Assembly: GCA_016181345.1 (NCBI GenBank)
Contig: JACOZM010000065.1
Coordinates: 1 to 10,824 of the forward strand
Direction: 5' to 3'
DNA from: Candidatus Woesearchaeota archaeon
GTDB lineage: Archaea; Nanobdellota; Nanobdellia; Woesearchaeales; GW2011-AR9
Length of the DNA stretch: 10,824 bases
Both the position numbers and the translations under genes were made by a program. The notes beneath the pieces are model-generated. The model was not told the DNA's origin. It was given only the letters and a program-made list of their open reading frames with translations, and ran no database searches. Numbering within the stretch: the stretch's first letter is position 1; every line of letters begins with the position of its first letter. Shown here piece after piece: positions 1,940 through 6,701 of this stretch.

Positions 1940-2257
1940 TTAATGAGCTTCTATCTCTCCTGACTTACCATCCATTGTAATCACTTGGCCATTCTTCAGT
2001 AATTCAGTTGCTTGTTTAACTGCTACAATACAAGCTATACCTAATTCTCGTGAAACAATCGAAGGATGACTCGTCATTCCCCCTACTTCACAGATGATTC
2101 CTCCAGCTTTTGCCATCAAGGGAACCATCGTCGGATCAGTAAGCCGAGTGACTAAGATATCTCCCTCTTCAAATAAAGCATGATCTTTAGAACTTTTAAT
2201 GATCCTAACTTTACCTTGAACATTTCCCGTACTTGTTCCCATACCTTTTAATTTCAT
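1940..2257 (-). CDS. Stand-alone phosphohistidine swivel (PEP-utilising enzyme mobile) domain
   Basis: A 105-residue protein that is essentially only the swivelling domain of PEP synthase, pyruvate phosphate dikinase and enzyme I (PF00391 type). The signature GGMTSHPSIVSRELGIACIV (59-78) contains the phospho-acceptor His (H64, in the T-S-H motif). The usual small residue after the His is Pro here. In the known enzymes this domain carries phosphate between an ATP-grasp and a PEP-binding domain. Neither is fused to it or encoded next to it in this window, so donor and acceptor are unknown. GAGGTTA lies about 6 nt before the ATG as a ribosome binding site. It sits between the HAD gene (62 nt upstream) and the 338-residue protein. 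Confidence 0.85.
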   Translation of the reverse strand: MKLKGMGTSTGNVQGKVRIIKSSKDHALFEEGDILVTRLTDPTMVPLMAKAGGIICEVGGMTSHPSIVSRELGIACIVAVKQATELLKNGQVITMDGKSGEIEAH

Positions 2258-4572: not shown

Positions 4573-5253
4573 ATGTCCGATAAAATAAGTATAGCCAGAC
4601 TAAAAAAATTTGGCAAGACTTTTGAACTCAGCGTTGACCCAGAAGCTGCACTAAAATACAAAAAAGGTGGAGCTGAACTTCACGATGTCTTGATGGCCAG
4701 CCACATTTTTACTAATGCAAAAAGAGGAGAAATGCCGACGGAAGTTGAATTACAGCAAGTCTTTAAAACAACCGATGTGGAAAAAATAGCTGATCTTATT
4801 CTTAAAGAAGGAGAAATCCAACTGACGTCAGAACATCGAGCCATAGAGCGAGAACAAAAAAAGAAAAAGCTCATCAATATGATTAGAACTTTAGCAGTCG
4901 ATCCAAAAAATAATTTGCCTATTCCTCCTGAAAGGATTGAATTAGCCTTAGAAGAAGGAAAAATTCATTTAAACGATAATAAAACCGTTGAAGAGCAATT
5001 TGATGATATCATTAAACGGCTCCGTCCAATTCTAGCCTTAAAAATTGAGCAAAAACGTCTTTCCATTGAAATCCCTAGCAAGTATGCTGGAAAAGCTCAA
5101 GGACAAATGCGAAAATATTCTATTATTAGAGAAGAATGGCTTCCAACAGGAGCATGGAAAGTAACGATCGAAAGCCCAGCCGGTTTAGTACCTGAAATAA
5201 TTGACCAATTAAATGCGCTAACCCACGGAGAAGTTGTCGTAGAGATTAAGTAA
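4573..5253 (+). CDS. SBDS/Sdo1 ribosome maturation factor
   Basis: A 226-residue protein matching archaeal SBDS in length and order. The FYSH domain (about 1-90) contains LMASHIFTNAKRGEMPTEVE and ends with GEIQLT. The central helical domain (about 95-160) contains the family stretch AVDPKNNLPIPPERIELAL. The ferredoxin-like C-terminal domain is at about 163-226. In eukaryotes SBDS works with the GTPase EFL1 to release eIF6 from the 60S subunit, and archaeal homologues bind the large ribosomal subunit. In most archaea it heads the exosome operon. Here it has its own promoter and is separated from rrp4 by about 1.6 kb of unrelated genes. Identification is secure. Confidence 0.96.
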   Translation: MSDKISIARLKKFGKTFELSVDPEAALKYKKGGAELHDVLMASHIFTNAKRGEMPTEVELQQVFKTTDVEKIADLILKEGEIQLTSEHRAIEREQKKKKLINMIRTLAVDPKNNLPIPPERIELALEEGKIHLNDNKTVEEQFDDIIKRLRPILALKIEQKRLSIEIPSKYAGKAQGQMRKYSIIREEWLPTGAWKVTIESPAGLVPEIIDQLNALTHGEVVVEIK

Positions 5254-5312
5254 GTAAAAAATGAAGATCTCCATCAAGAAGATAAATCTATTTCATCTCT
5301 CTTCTAGGAAAA

Positions 5313-5320
5313 TTTATATA
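5313..5320 (+). promoter_or_regulatory. TATA box of the SemiSWEET gene
   Basis: TTTATATA preceded by GGAAAA. The predicted start site at about 5343-5347 falls inside the ATA repeat, giving a leader of about 10-15 nt made only of repeat units. Confidence 0.55.
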
Positions 5321-5334
5321 TGAAACTTTATGCT

Positions 5335-5357: not shown

Positions 5358-5612
5358 ATGGATCTTATACAGATAAGTGGATACTTGGCCGGTATTATTA
5401 TTGCTATATCTTTAACACCACAAGTTATCCAAGCATGGAAGACAAAATCAACAAGGGACATCTCTTTACCGTGGACTCTCCTCCTATTAACTGGCTTGGT
5501 ATTATACTTTGTATATGGTTTTGGTATTGGAGAAATGCCCATCATTGTAGCTAATATCATTGAGACTTTGTTAGTTATCTCGCTAATTATAGCAAAATTA
5601 ATCTACAAATGA
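5358..5612 (+). CDS. SemiSWEET-type PQ-loop sugar transporter
   Basis: An 84-residue integral membrane protein with three predicted helices (about 4-24, 38-56, 61-81). The PQ motif sits at the end of helix 1 (SLTPQVIQAWKTKSTRDIS, residues 18-36). This is the single triple-helix bundle of SemiSWEETs, which work as dimers to move sugars by facilitated diffusion. Eukaryotic SWEETs carry two bundles. The length is typical of the family. The start follows the ATA repeat and has no ribosome binding site. The end overlaps the tail of the convergent oxygenase-partner gene by 10 nt (5603-5612). The substrate cannot be read from the sequence, and some short PQ-loop proteins are not sugar carriers. Confidence 0.88.
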   Translation: MDLIQISGYLAGIIIAISLTPQVIQAWKTKSTRDISLPWTLLLLTGLVLYFVYGFGIGEMPIIVANIIETLLVISLIIAKLIYK

Positions 5613-6112
5613 AGCCCCATCATCCCAAACAAAAATTCTCTTTTTCCTCGAGCTAAATGATTAACATATTTAACATAAAAAGAAACTGGATTTTTAATAA
5701 TAGTTAGTGTATTTTTTTGAGATGGAACTCGTATATGATTTCCCTCTTCATCTATAAACACAACATATCCGCCATAAGAGTCATCCCAATGTTGAGATTG
5801 ATAAAGAGCATAGATTCCTTTTTTTAATGCCGTGTGATCATTCCTAACAATATAATCTTTAGAAGACAATTGAAGTGCATTCCACTCCATCTTTCCTTGA
5901 ACTATTCTTCTTAAAAAATCATCATCAAAGTAAGCTAAAGCTTCTGCATATTTCCCTCGTAAAACATCATTCTTCTTCCGAAAAGAAAACGTTTTCTTCC
6001 TCAACACAGCAAACTCATCTGGACATAAAAAGTCAAATAAAGTTACTATCCCTTCTTTAGCTAAGACTTGAAGAATTGCTTCTTCTTTTCCTTCATACCA
6101 CGAATTAACCAT
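5603..6112 (-). CDS. Homologue of the C-terminal domain of Ofd1/Tpa1/OGFOD1, as a separate gene
   Basis: A 169-residue protein. Its second half matches, from memory of the family, the C-terminal double-stranded beta-helix of eukaryotic OGFOD1/Tpa1/Ofd1. The matching landmarks, in order, are KDYIVRNDH (85-93), HWDDSYGGYVVFI (108-120), NTLTII (134-139) and YVKYVNHLARGKREF (146-160). In the eukaryotic proteins this domain is non-catalytic and serves in substrate or partner binding. The ATG overlaps the end of the upstream catalytic gene by 8 nt (the stop TAA lies within ATGGTTAA), so the two are translationally coupled and probably form one complex. The first 75 residues are helical and less recognisable. 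The stop lies inside the end of the convergent SemiSWEET gene. Confidence 0.7.
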   Translation of the reverse strand: MVNSWYEGKEEAILQVLAKEGIVTLFDFLCPDEFAVLRKKTFSFRKKNDVLRGKYAEALAYFDDDFLRRIVQGKMEWNALQLSSKDYIVRNDHTALKKGIYALYQSQHWDDSYGGYVVFIDEEGNHIRVPSQKNTLTIIKNPVSFYVKYVNHLARGKREFLFGMMGLHL

Positions 6113-6701
6113 GAAACCACCCGCTTAATGCCCATCTCTTGCCAAAATAAACTTCCTCAACTGAATGAACTGACTGTGAAGAAACAGCAAAAAGAACTAA
6201 TCTCCCGCTAGCAGGAGTGATTTTCTTTGTAACTTTATTTTCTTGAAATAACTGTAATCGCCCTCCTTGATTTTTCTTTAAGGTATTTAGAAAAAAGACG
6301 AACGCAATTCTTCTTCCGGCTAATCGATCATCATGAGGCAGAAGGTGATTTGTACTCTGATATAACGAGCCAAAAAGGTCGATCTCAGAAGAGATAGGAA
6401 TTCTTGTCAGTTCAAAGATCTTTTGTTTCCATTCCGAAGATTGAAATATCTGAACAAGTGACGAAAATCGTAAATGATCCTTCAGCTCCGAACTTTGCCA
6501 AAACGTAAATAAGTCTGATTCTTTTAGAGTAAATTTTTCTTTCTGAAGAGCAGAAAGAAGTTCCTTGCATTTTCGTTGAGATAAAAATTGGTCAATGACA
6601 AGACAAGGAAATGGTTTTGCAGCCATAAAAGACTTATACAAAGATCTCATATCTCCAGAATGATCGACCAATTTAAGTAGTTTTTGCCTTCCATTCTTCA
6701 T
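6105..6701 (-). CDS. Fe(II)/2-oxoglutarate prolyl hydroxylase of the Ofd1/Tpa1/OGFOD1 type, catalytic half
   Basis: A 198-residue protein with the 2OG-oxygenase core. LLPHDDRLAGRRIAFVFFLN (120-139) supplies H123 and D125 of the iron triad. GGRLQLF (146-152) is the family turn. SVHSVEEV (177-184) supplies the distal H179. GKRWALSGWFHG (187-198) supplies R189 for the 2-oxoglutarate carboxylate. The HDD..RRIAF and SGWFHG signatures are those of the eukaryotic enzymes that hydroxylate a proline of ribosomal protein uS12 (Rps23). All catalytic residues are present. The protein ends at SGWFHG, where the eukaryotic enzymes continue into their second domain. Here that domain is encoded by the next, overlapping gene. 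A TATA box about 23 nt upstream suggests a leaderless mRNA. Targeting uS12 is an inference, supported by the SBDS neighbour. Confidence 0.85.
   Translation of the reverse strand: MKNGRQKLLKLVDHSGDMRSLYKSFMAAKPFPCLVIDQFLSQRKCKELLSALQKEKFTLKESDLFTFWQSSELKDHLRFSSLVQIFQSSEWKQKIFELTRIPISSEIDLFGSLYQSTNHLLPHDDRLAGRRIAFVFFLNTLKKNQGGRLQLFQENKVTKKITPASGRLVLFAVSSQSVHSVEEVYFGKRWALSGWFHG

Follow-up and report, generated by a model that had tools for sequence, protein, structure and literature searches.

In animals and fungi, OGFOD1/Tpa1 is a single protein that modifies a proline in the decoding centre of the ribosome. The OGFOD1 domains have been described as tightly packed, the published list of substrate-groove residues includes two from the C-terminal domain (CTD), Ile450 and Asp452, and the subfamily was stated to occur only in eukaryotes (PMC4396695; 2015). 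Here we describe a pair of overlapping genes of this kind from an archaeon, located in a 10,824-nucleotide stretch (the window) of Candidatus Woesearchaeota contig JACOZM010000065.1, assembly GCA_016181345.1 (902,592 bases, 68% complete). The first gene encodes a 2-oxoglutarate (2OG) and Fe(II)-dependent oxygenase and the second a non-catalytic partner. Homology and the two-gene arrangement are well supported, and the pair represents a known enzyme family in a two-subunit variant, beyond the eukaryotes to which it was said to be confined. The reading we prefer, with a probability of roughly two in three, is that of a two-subunit prolyl 3-hydroxylase (P3H) of OGFOD1/Tpa1 type, in which the dead subunit helps to form the substrate groove and ribosomal protein uS12 is the likely substrate. 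That the two proteins form a heterodimer, that it is active and that uS12 is its substrate is what we infer from the observations below.

The catalytic protein

Both open reading frames (ORFs) were found on the minus strand where an earlier interpretation of the window, made from the letters alone (the sequence-only reading), had placed them (Table 1). As judged from its sequence, the first protein is firmly identified as homologous to the catalytic domain of OGFOD1/Tpa1, with all of the Fe(II) and 2OG ligands. The predicted ligands H123, D125, H179 and R189 were all present and each was invariant in the 60 archaeal rows of the alignment, the window included. The protein matched the Pfam family 2OG-FeII_Oxy_4 (PF13661, E 1.6e-21), and a single-sequence search of solved structures returned human OGFOD1 (4nhx, E 8.5e-21) and Tpa1 (2.1e-7) ahead of the next family (2.6e-3). 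A profile of 34 archaeal relatives widened this interval, with OGFOD1 at 3.3e-57 and Tpa1 at 1.2e-38, followed by 5.8e-7. The predicted structure had a mean local confidence score (pLDDT) of 93.6, low only across about the first 16 residues, and the first eight Foldseek matches of this model were all OGFOD1 and Tpa1. The searches of solved structures and the tree described below place the catalytic half with OGFOD1/Tpa1 and not with the sampled bacterial and phage single-domain oxygenases (six rows). A homologue of 82% identity begins at the equivalent of M18, which may be the true start of the protein.

The active-site tyrosine of the HIF/PHD type (Tyr310 of PHD2) is replaced by leucine in 60/60 archaeal rows. 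Prolyl 4-hydroxylases (P4Hs) have tyrosine at the position of OGFOD1 Leu152 (PMC4396695).

At another locus (L074, 3536-4618, +) a pyrimidine-dimer DNA glycosylase domain (PF03013, 6.4e-22) stands at the N terminus of the catalytic ORF, which represents either a repair domain fused to the oxygenase or a misread start.

The partner protein

The sequence-only reading had taken the second protein to be the other OGFOD1/Tpa1 domain, and a match to the CTD was obtained by family profile and by fold. Homology of the partner with the non-catalytic CTD of OGFOD1/Ofd1/Tpa1 is firm. The motifs YIVRNDH, W..SYGG, NTL and YVKYVNH occur in this order in the 169-residue protein, while SGWFHG forms the C-terminal end of the 198-residue protein as had been reported. 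The full metal triad was retained in none of the 31 aligned partners. Kinship with the CTD was seen only through the family profile; the lone partner sequence gave no match in the PDB and a match under the cut-off in Pfam.

The partner profile and alignment used 32 of 36 partners, with L022, L033, L034 and L036 omitted as divergent or containing Ns. This profile recognised the partner in 34 of the 37 genomes with the catalytic gene, one of the others (G184) being cut off at a contig end, and in the other 154 genomes searched it returned two weak matches (G084, G092) that were not of partner type. Additional short matches were present in two carriers (G029:C24:4259-4423, 2.7e-9; G189:C2:105927-106052, 3.7e-7) and are possibly fragments of second partner copies.

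A conserved two-gene arrangement

The catalytic gene was identified in 37 of 191 genomes of relatives, including that of the window. In 36 of these carriers a downstream ORF of at least 150 residues overlapped or abutted it, and in the 37th the gene ends 49 nt short of the contig end. The partner start was offset by -8 (15 carriers), -11 (11), -14 (2), -4 (6) or +11 (1) nt, with the remaining locus (L022) disturbed by Ns. Scanning a one-genome-per-species collection yielded 63 loci, where the partner was adjacent in 60, located 768 nt downstream in L082 and cut off by contig ends in two. The offset was -8 or -11 in 42/61 loci (range -47 to +768) and the partner was in the +1 frame in 48/61, the start codons having been picked by a script that favoured an ATG near -8.

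These 63 loci came from Woese-, Pace- and Nanoarchaeota, from Marine Group III/Poseidoniia (thirteen, several of them labelled only Euryarchaeota), from two Heimdallarchaeota, one Kariarchaeota and some other archaea. Within the Heimdallarchaeota phylum the pair was present in 5/227 genomes, once on a contig of more than 660 kb, with a sixth and partial match in a 331-residue ORF (G338). The pair was present in 7/292 genomes of the Marine Group III phylum, and 47/371 genomes of the window's phylum had a catalytic match, which in G731 is a fragment, only the catalytic gene being scored there; the 292 and 371 genomes were samples from larger groups. Two loci labelled 'bacterium' (L049) and Yanofskybacteria (L051) carry the archaeal pair and are nested among DPANN sequences in the trees; these are probably misbinned contigs or a recent transfer.

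No fused prokaryotic form was encountered in the genome and protein searches made, which covered the 191 genomes, the one-per-species collection, the phylum sets and a profile of the joined pair. The last of these, in which scoring was confined to the 7996 candidates with most words in common, yielded 40 proteins, of which ten (484-664 residues) were fused. Three of the ten (P0045, P0046 and P0061) are from named eukaryotes, a shark, a locust and a microsporidian relative, and the other seven were considered eukaryote-type because they group with these three. A single-sequence scan of the genome-contig collection found no relative, while an alignment-based scan did find relatives. Among viral contigs, the 18 pattern matches of the catalytic profile included no relative, and distant single-domain relatives were found in two phage records.

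Wherever an examined carrier had room downstream, the two domains were encoded by separate genes, and the pair was therefore classed as a two-subunit variant of the OGFOD1/Tpa1/Ofd1 family rather than a plain member. It is well supported that this arrangement is conserved across distant archaea and is not a local break in the window. The alternative that a frameshift or an assembly error has recently broken a fused gene, leaving a second half that is debris or is read by programmed frameshifting, would fit the contiguous coding regions and the prevalence of the +1 frame, but it is very improbable given the separate genes, the several frames and widely spread offsets, and the lack of a fused prokaryotic form in these searches. 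The genes of L082, from one Woesearchaeota genome, are moreover separated by an antisense ORF of 247 residues (4587-5330, -; no Pfam match at 1e-4), and the two halves there, provided that both are made, have to be separate proteins. Programmed frameshifting in particular was rejected as frames vary and an antisense gene lies between the halves in L082.

Gene overlap and probable translational coupling

The catalytic gene ends in CAT GGT TAA and the partner is in the +1 frame relative to it. The sequence-only reading had set the partner start inside the stop codon, which was incorrect, as the ATG lies upstream of the TAA within the His-Gly codons. A Shine-Dalgarno-like 4-mer was located just 5' of the partner start in 30/46 loci (offsets -7 to -15) compared to 57/591 ATGs elsewhere in the catalytic genes. 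The Gly codon of the terminal Gly-Trp was GGG in 25/45 genes relative to 77/443 other Gly codons in the same genes (p 7e-8, uncorrected for kinship). Since the terminal Gly-Trp-x-His-Gly codons also supply GGGTGG and the partner ATG, translation of the two genes appears to be coupled.

Table 1. Positions of the two genes, their overlap and selected codons in the window (gene coordinates include the stop codon).
Feature	Position	Strand	Description
Catalytic gene	6105..6701	-	198-aa 2OG-Fe(II) oxygenase, OGFOD1/Tpa1 type
Partner gene	5603..6112	-	169-aa non-catalytic double-stranded beta-helix protein; homologue of OGFOD1/Ofd1/Tpa1 CTD
Gene overlap	6105..6112	-	8 nt; partner ATG (6112-6110) built from His and Gly codon bases before catalytic stop
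GGGTGG (Gly-Trp codons of SGWFHG)	6117..6122	-	Shine-Dalgarno-like, 4 nt before partner ATG; putative role
H123-D124-D125 codons (HxD)	6327..6335	-	Metal ligands H123 and D125; 60/60 archaeal, 10/10 fused eukaryote-type rows
L120 codon	6342..6344	-	Equivalent of OGFOD1 Leu152; 60/60 archaeal, 10/10 fused rows
H179 codon	6165..6167	-	Third metal ligand; 60/60 archaeal, 10/10 fused rows
R189 codon	6135..6137	-	2OG carboxylate; 60/60 archaeal, 10/10 fused rows
Y87-D92 codons (YIVRND) of partner	5837..5854	-	D92 aligned to OGFOD1 Asp452

Substrate groove and proposed role of the partner

The OGFOD1 groove residues (list from PMC4396695, mapped by motif onto shark OGFOD1) were compared with the archaeal proteins. 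Groove positions Leu152, Arg162 and Trp236 and the DL(F/Y) hairpin were retained in the catalytic proteins, where conservation of the groove positions was 0.656 compared to 0.333 for other columns. The partners carry a motif, (D)Y(T)LLHD, at the region of OGFOD1 Ile450/Asp452, with Asp in 46/60 partners and Tyr or Phe at the Y87 position in 60/60. Completion of the groove in trans is proposed because of this partner motif and the retained catalytic positions. The dead subunit would pack against the catalytic subunit through the minor beta sheets, as the OGFOD1 domains do, so that the partner's Y....D loop sits at the edge of the active-site groove, where it would position the substrate and complete the groove in trans. 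The KQPNS-loop proline of uS12 would then be hydroxylated with O2 and 2OG.

It is conceivable that the catalytic subunit works alone and that the partner is a free-standing protein which binds other factors, for instance as a regulator or as a switch that depends on oxygen. The CTD of fission-yeast Ofd1 interacts with the regulator Nro1 (PMC4396695), and no partner-like ORF lies within about 1.2 kb of six single-domain relatives from bacteria or phages. The archaeal genes, on the other hand, co-occur and overlap and the groove-lining motif of OGFOD1 is retained in the partner, which makes such an independent role improbable.

uS12 as candidate substrate

The proline loop expected by the sequence-only reading was present in uS12 of the window's genome, where it reads KQPNSAMRKC, and KQPNS was found in 16/16 uS12 sequences, from twelve carriers and four non-carriers. 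Conservation of the loop with and without the enzyme permits but does not prove uS12 as the substrate. Binding of fission-yeast Ofd1 to Rps23 involves the first 23 residues of the latter and is abolished when a basic residue, Pro, Gly or Leu in this N terminus is altered (PMC5690285). The N terminus of the window's uS12 is MGNKPRGLGSAKKL. The docking proline was present in uS12 of 8/29 carriers compared to 4/63 non-carriers (p 0.008), a post hoc hint only and uncorrected for kinship, and within the family in 6/16 carriers compared to 1/28 non-carriers, likewise a post hoc hint. The sample comprised 32 carriers with a uS12 match, 29 of them resolved, and 67 of 143 non-carriers with a match, a convenience choice of which 63 were resolved. 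The KQPNS proline in the decoding centre is the most likely substrate, and its hydroxylation would be the activity of the pair.

Several observations weigh against a uS12 hydroxylase completed by its partner. The KQPNS loop was equally present in 4/4 non-carriers and does not single out uS12, and the docking proline was missing in 21/29 carriers. The gene was carried by only 37/191 relatives, many with incomplete genomes, so that the modification looks dispensable. Conservation of the groove positions in the catalytic proteins is due in part to nearness to the active site, and groove residue Tyr96 of OGFOD1 is Phe in 55/60 archaea while Ile450 is mostly replaced by Leu. For the partner, PHD2 and a Pseudomonas P4H came within 1 Z of OGFOD1 when fold alone was considered. 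In two genomes (G075, locus L033; G004, locus L036) a partner ORF was in the right place but was missed by the profile, and the dead subunit there may be decaying or evolving fast.

The same two-subunit enzyme could act on another substrate, such as a different translation factor, a free amino acid or a non-ribosomal protein. The indifference of the uS12 loop to the enzyme and the absence of the Ofd1-type docking proline from most carriers would fit this, as would gene neighbourhoods that are not conserved and point to no pathway. Among the structure matches of the partner is also 4iw3, a Pseudomonas P4H crystallised with EF-Tu. Retention of the OGFOD1 groove positions and hairpin and the presence of a specific CTD homologue beside the enzyme argue against it, and a substrate other than uS12 is considered unlikely, though it deserves more weight than an independent partner.

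Phylogeny and origin

When both halves (38 + 38 rows) were put into one tree, catalytic and non-catalytic copies separated at 100/100, and the fused proteins had their N domains on the archaeal catalytic side and their C domains on the side of the archaeal partners. Each half had been aligned on its own before the two alignments were combined, a procedure that may itself push the halves apart. This split suggests that the duplication is older than the archaeal-eukaryotic divergence of the forms. Of the six bacterial and phage single-domain rows, four were outside behind a 100/100 branch and two were on a very long branch basal to the rest. The fused rows formed one group (100/99 without P0061; 51/86 with P0061, catalytic half only), and Asgard sequences were placed in an otherwise DPANN set (100/98). 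A constraint uniting Eukarya and Asgard was neither supported nor rejected by the approximately unbiased (AU) test (p-AU 0.064), and archaeal monophyly was not rejected (p-AU 0.38). Rooting by the paralogue, in the combined tree of both halves and with its alignment caveat, placed the fused rows inside the archaea, with bootstraps of 85-93 and approximate likelihood-ratio (SH-aLRT) values of 46-94 on the branches concerned. Loci L101, L069, L106, L053, L039 and L059 (truncated, incomplete or with ambiguous bases) were omitted from the trees, and P0061 also from the fused-group (100/99), Eukarya and Asgard, paralogue-rooted and archaeal-monophyly analyses.

Since the archaea examined have two genes and the eukaryotes one, and tandem duplication yields two genes, this difference in gene number favours a fusion of the archaeal pair in eukaryotes, although a transfer between domains, with archaea as the recipients, may also account for the trees. 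A wider scenario, offered tentatively and at somewhat short of even odds, is that the hydroxylase is older than eukaryotes, that an archaeal tandem duplicate gave rise to an enzyme and a dead partner with coupled genes, that a eukaryotic fusion produced OGFOD1/Tpa1, and that carriers hydroxylate uS12 today.

Gene neighbourhood

The pair is flanked in the window by genes for SBDS, a PQ-loop protein, Rrp4 and two RNase PH-type exosome subunits (Pfam), a setting that fits an archaeon. The sequence-only reading took the SBDS and exosome genes as a sign of a role in translation. ORFs of at least 90 residues from loci L039-L101 and the window were clustered (blastp 1e-8; flanks of up to 4 kb, shorter at contig ends), and as SBDS, Rrp4 and the two RNase PH genes recurred near the pair in 0/63 other loci, the argument carries no weight and was dropped. 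Neighbours were common only to close groups, for example the thirteen Poseidoniia/Marine Group III loci, where one shared neighbour presumably resembles CTP synthase. The PQ-loop gene (PF04193, 84 residues, 5358-5612, +) is tail to tail with the partner gene with a 10-nt overlap. Further away in the window (1940-2257, -) is a free-standing phosphoenolpyruvate-utilising mobile domain of 105 residues (PF00391, 9.9e-27), the rest of such an enzyme being absent from the ORF.

Comparison with known systems

The pairs of Asgard archaea, DPANN archaea and Marine Group III have the look of a duplication whose copies have stayed separate genes, and the two-gene form is a simpler setting for asking how a decoding-centre modification arose. 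Because the subunits can be made separately and mixed, the role of the dead domain is directly testable. The pairs also raise the question of whether archaeal ribosomes carry the proline modification. They place an O2- and 2OG-dependent enzyme in small DPANN genomes and other carrier lineages, which are often taken to be anaerobic. Automatic names of the OGFOD1/Tpa1 kind are already attached to some database proteins, including one of archaeon GW2011_AR17. The literature on archaeal and Asgard OGFOD1-family prolyl hydroxylases, in a search that covered part of the sources and few subscription papers, yielded no account of a two-gene form in archaea.

The HIF prolyl hydroxylases (PHD2/EGLN) share the prolyl hydroxylase fold with the archaeal catalytic protein but are single-domain proteins, have Tyr where the OGFOD1-type family has Leu (PMC4396695) and gave a far weaker sequence match. 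The bacterial single-domain prolyl hydroxylases, including Pseudomonas PPHD and plasmid-borne 2OG-Fe(II) oxygenases, share its catalytic fold and chemistry, the plasmid-borne type (five records found) at about 26-31% identity to an archaeal member. Whereas the archaeal gene has a partner, no partner-like ORF was located beside four plasmid and two phage matches, and the bacterial single-domain rows were placed outside the archaeal-eukaryotic group in the tree. The closest systems are the eukaryotic uS12 prolyl 3-hydroxylases OGFOD1, Tpa1, Ofd1 and Sudestada1, which share with the archaeal pair the catalytic double-stranded beta-helix with the same ligands, the P3H leucine and most groove residues, as well as a second, metal-free double-stranded beta-helix domain in the same order. 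The archaeal pair differs from them in consisting of two polypeptides from overlapping genes, in having no acidic loop or long linker, in its archaeal host, and in having uS12 as a candidate substrate.
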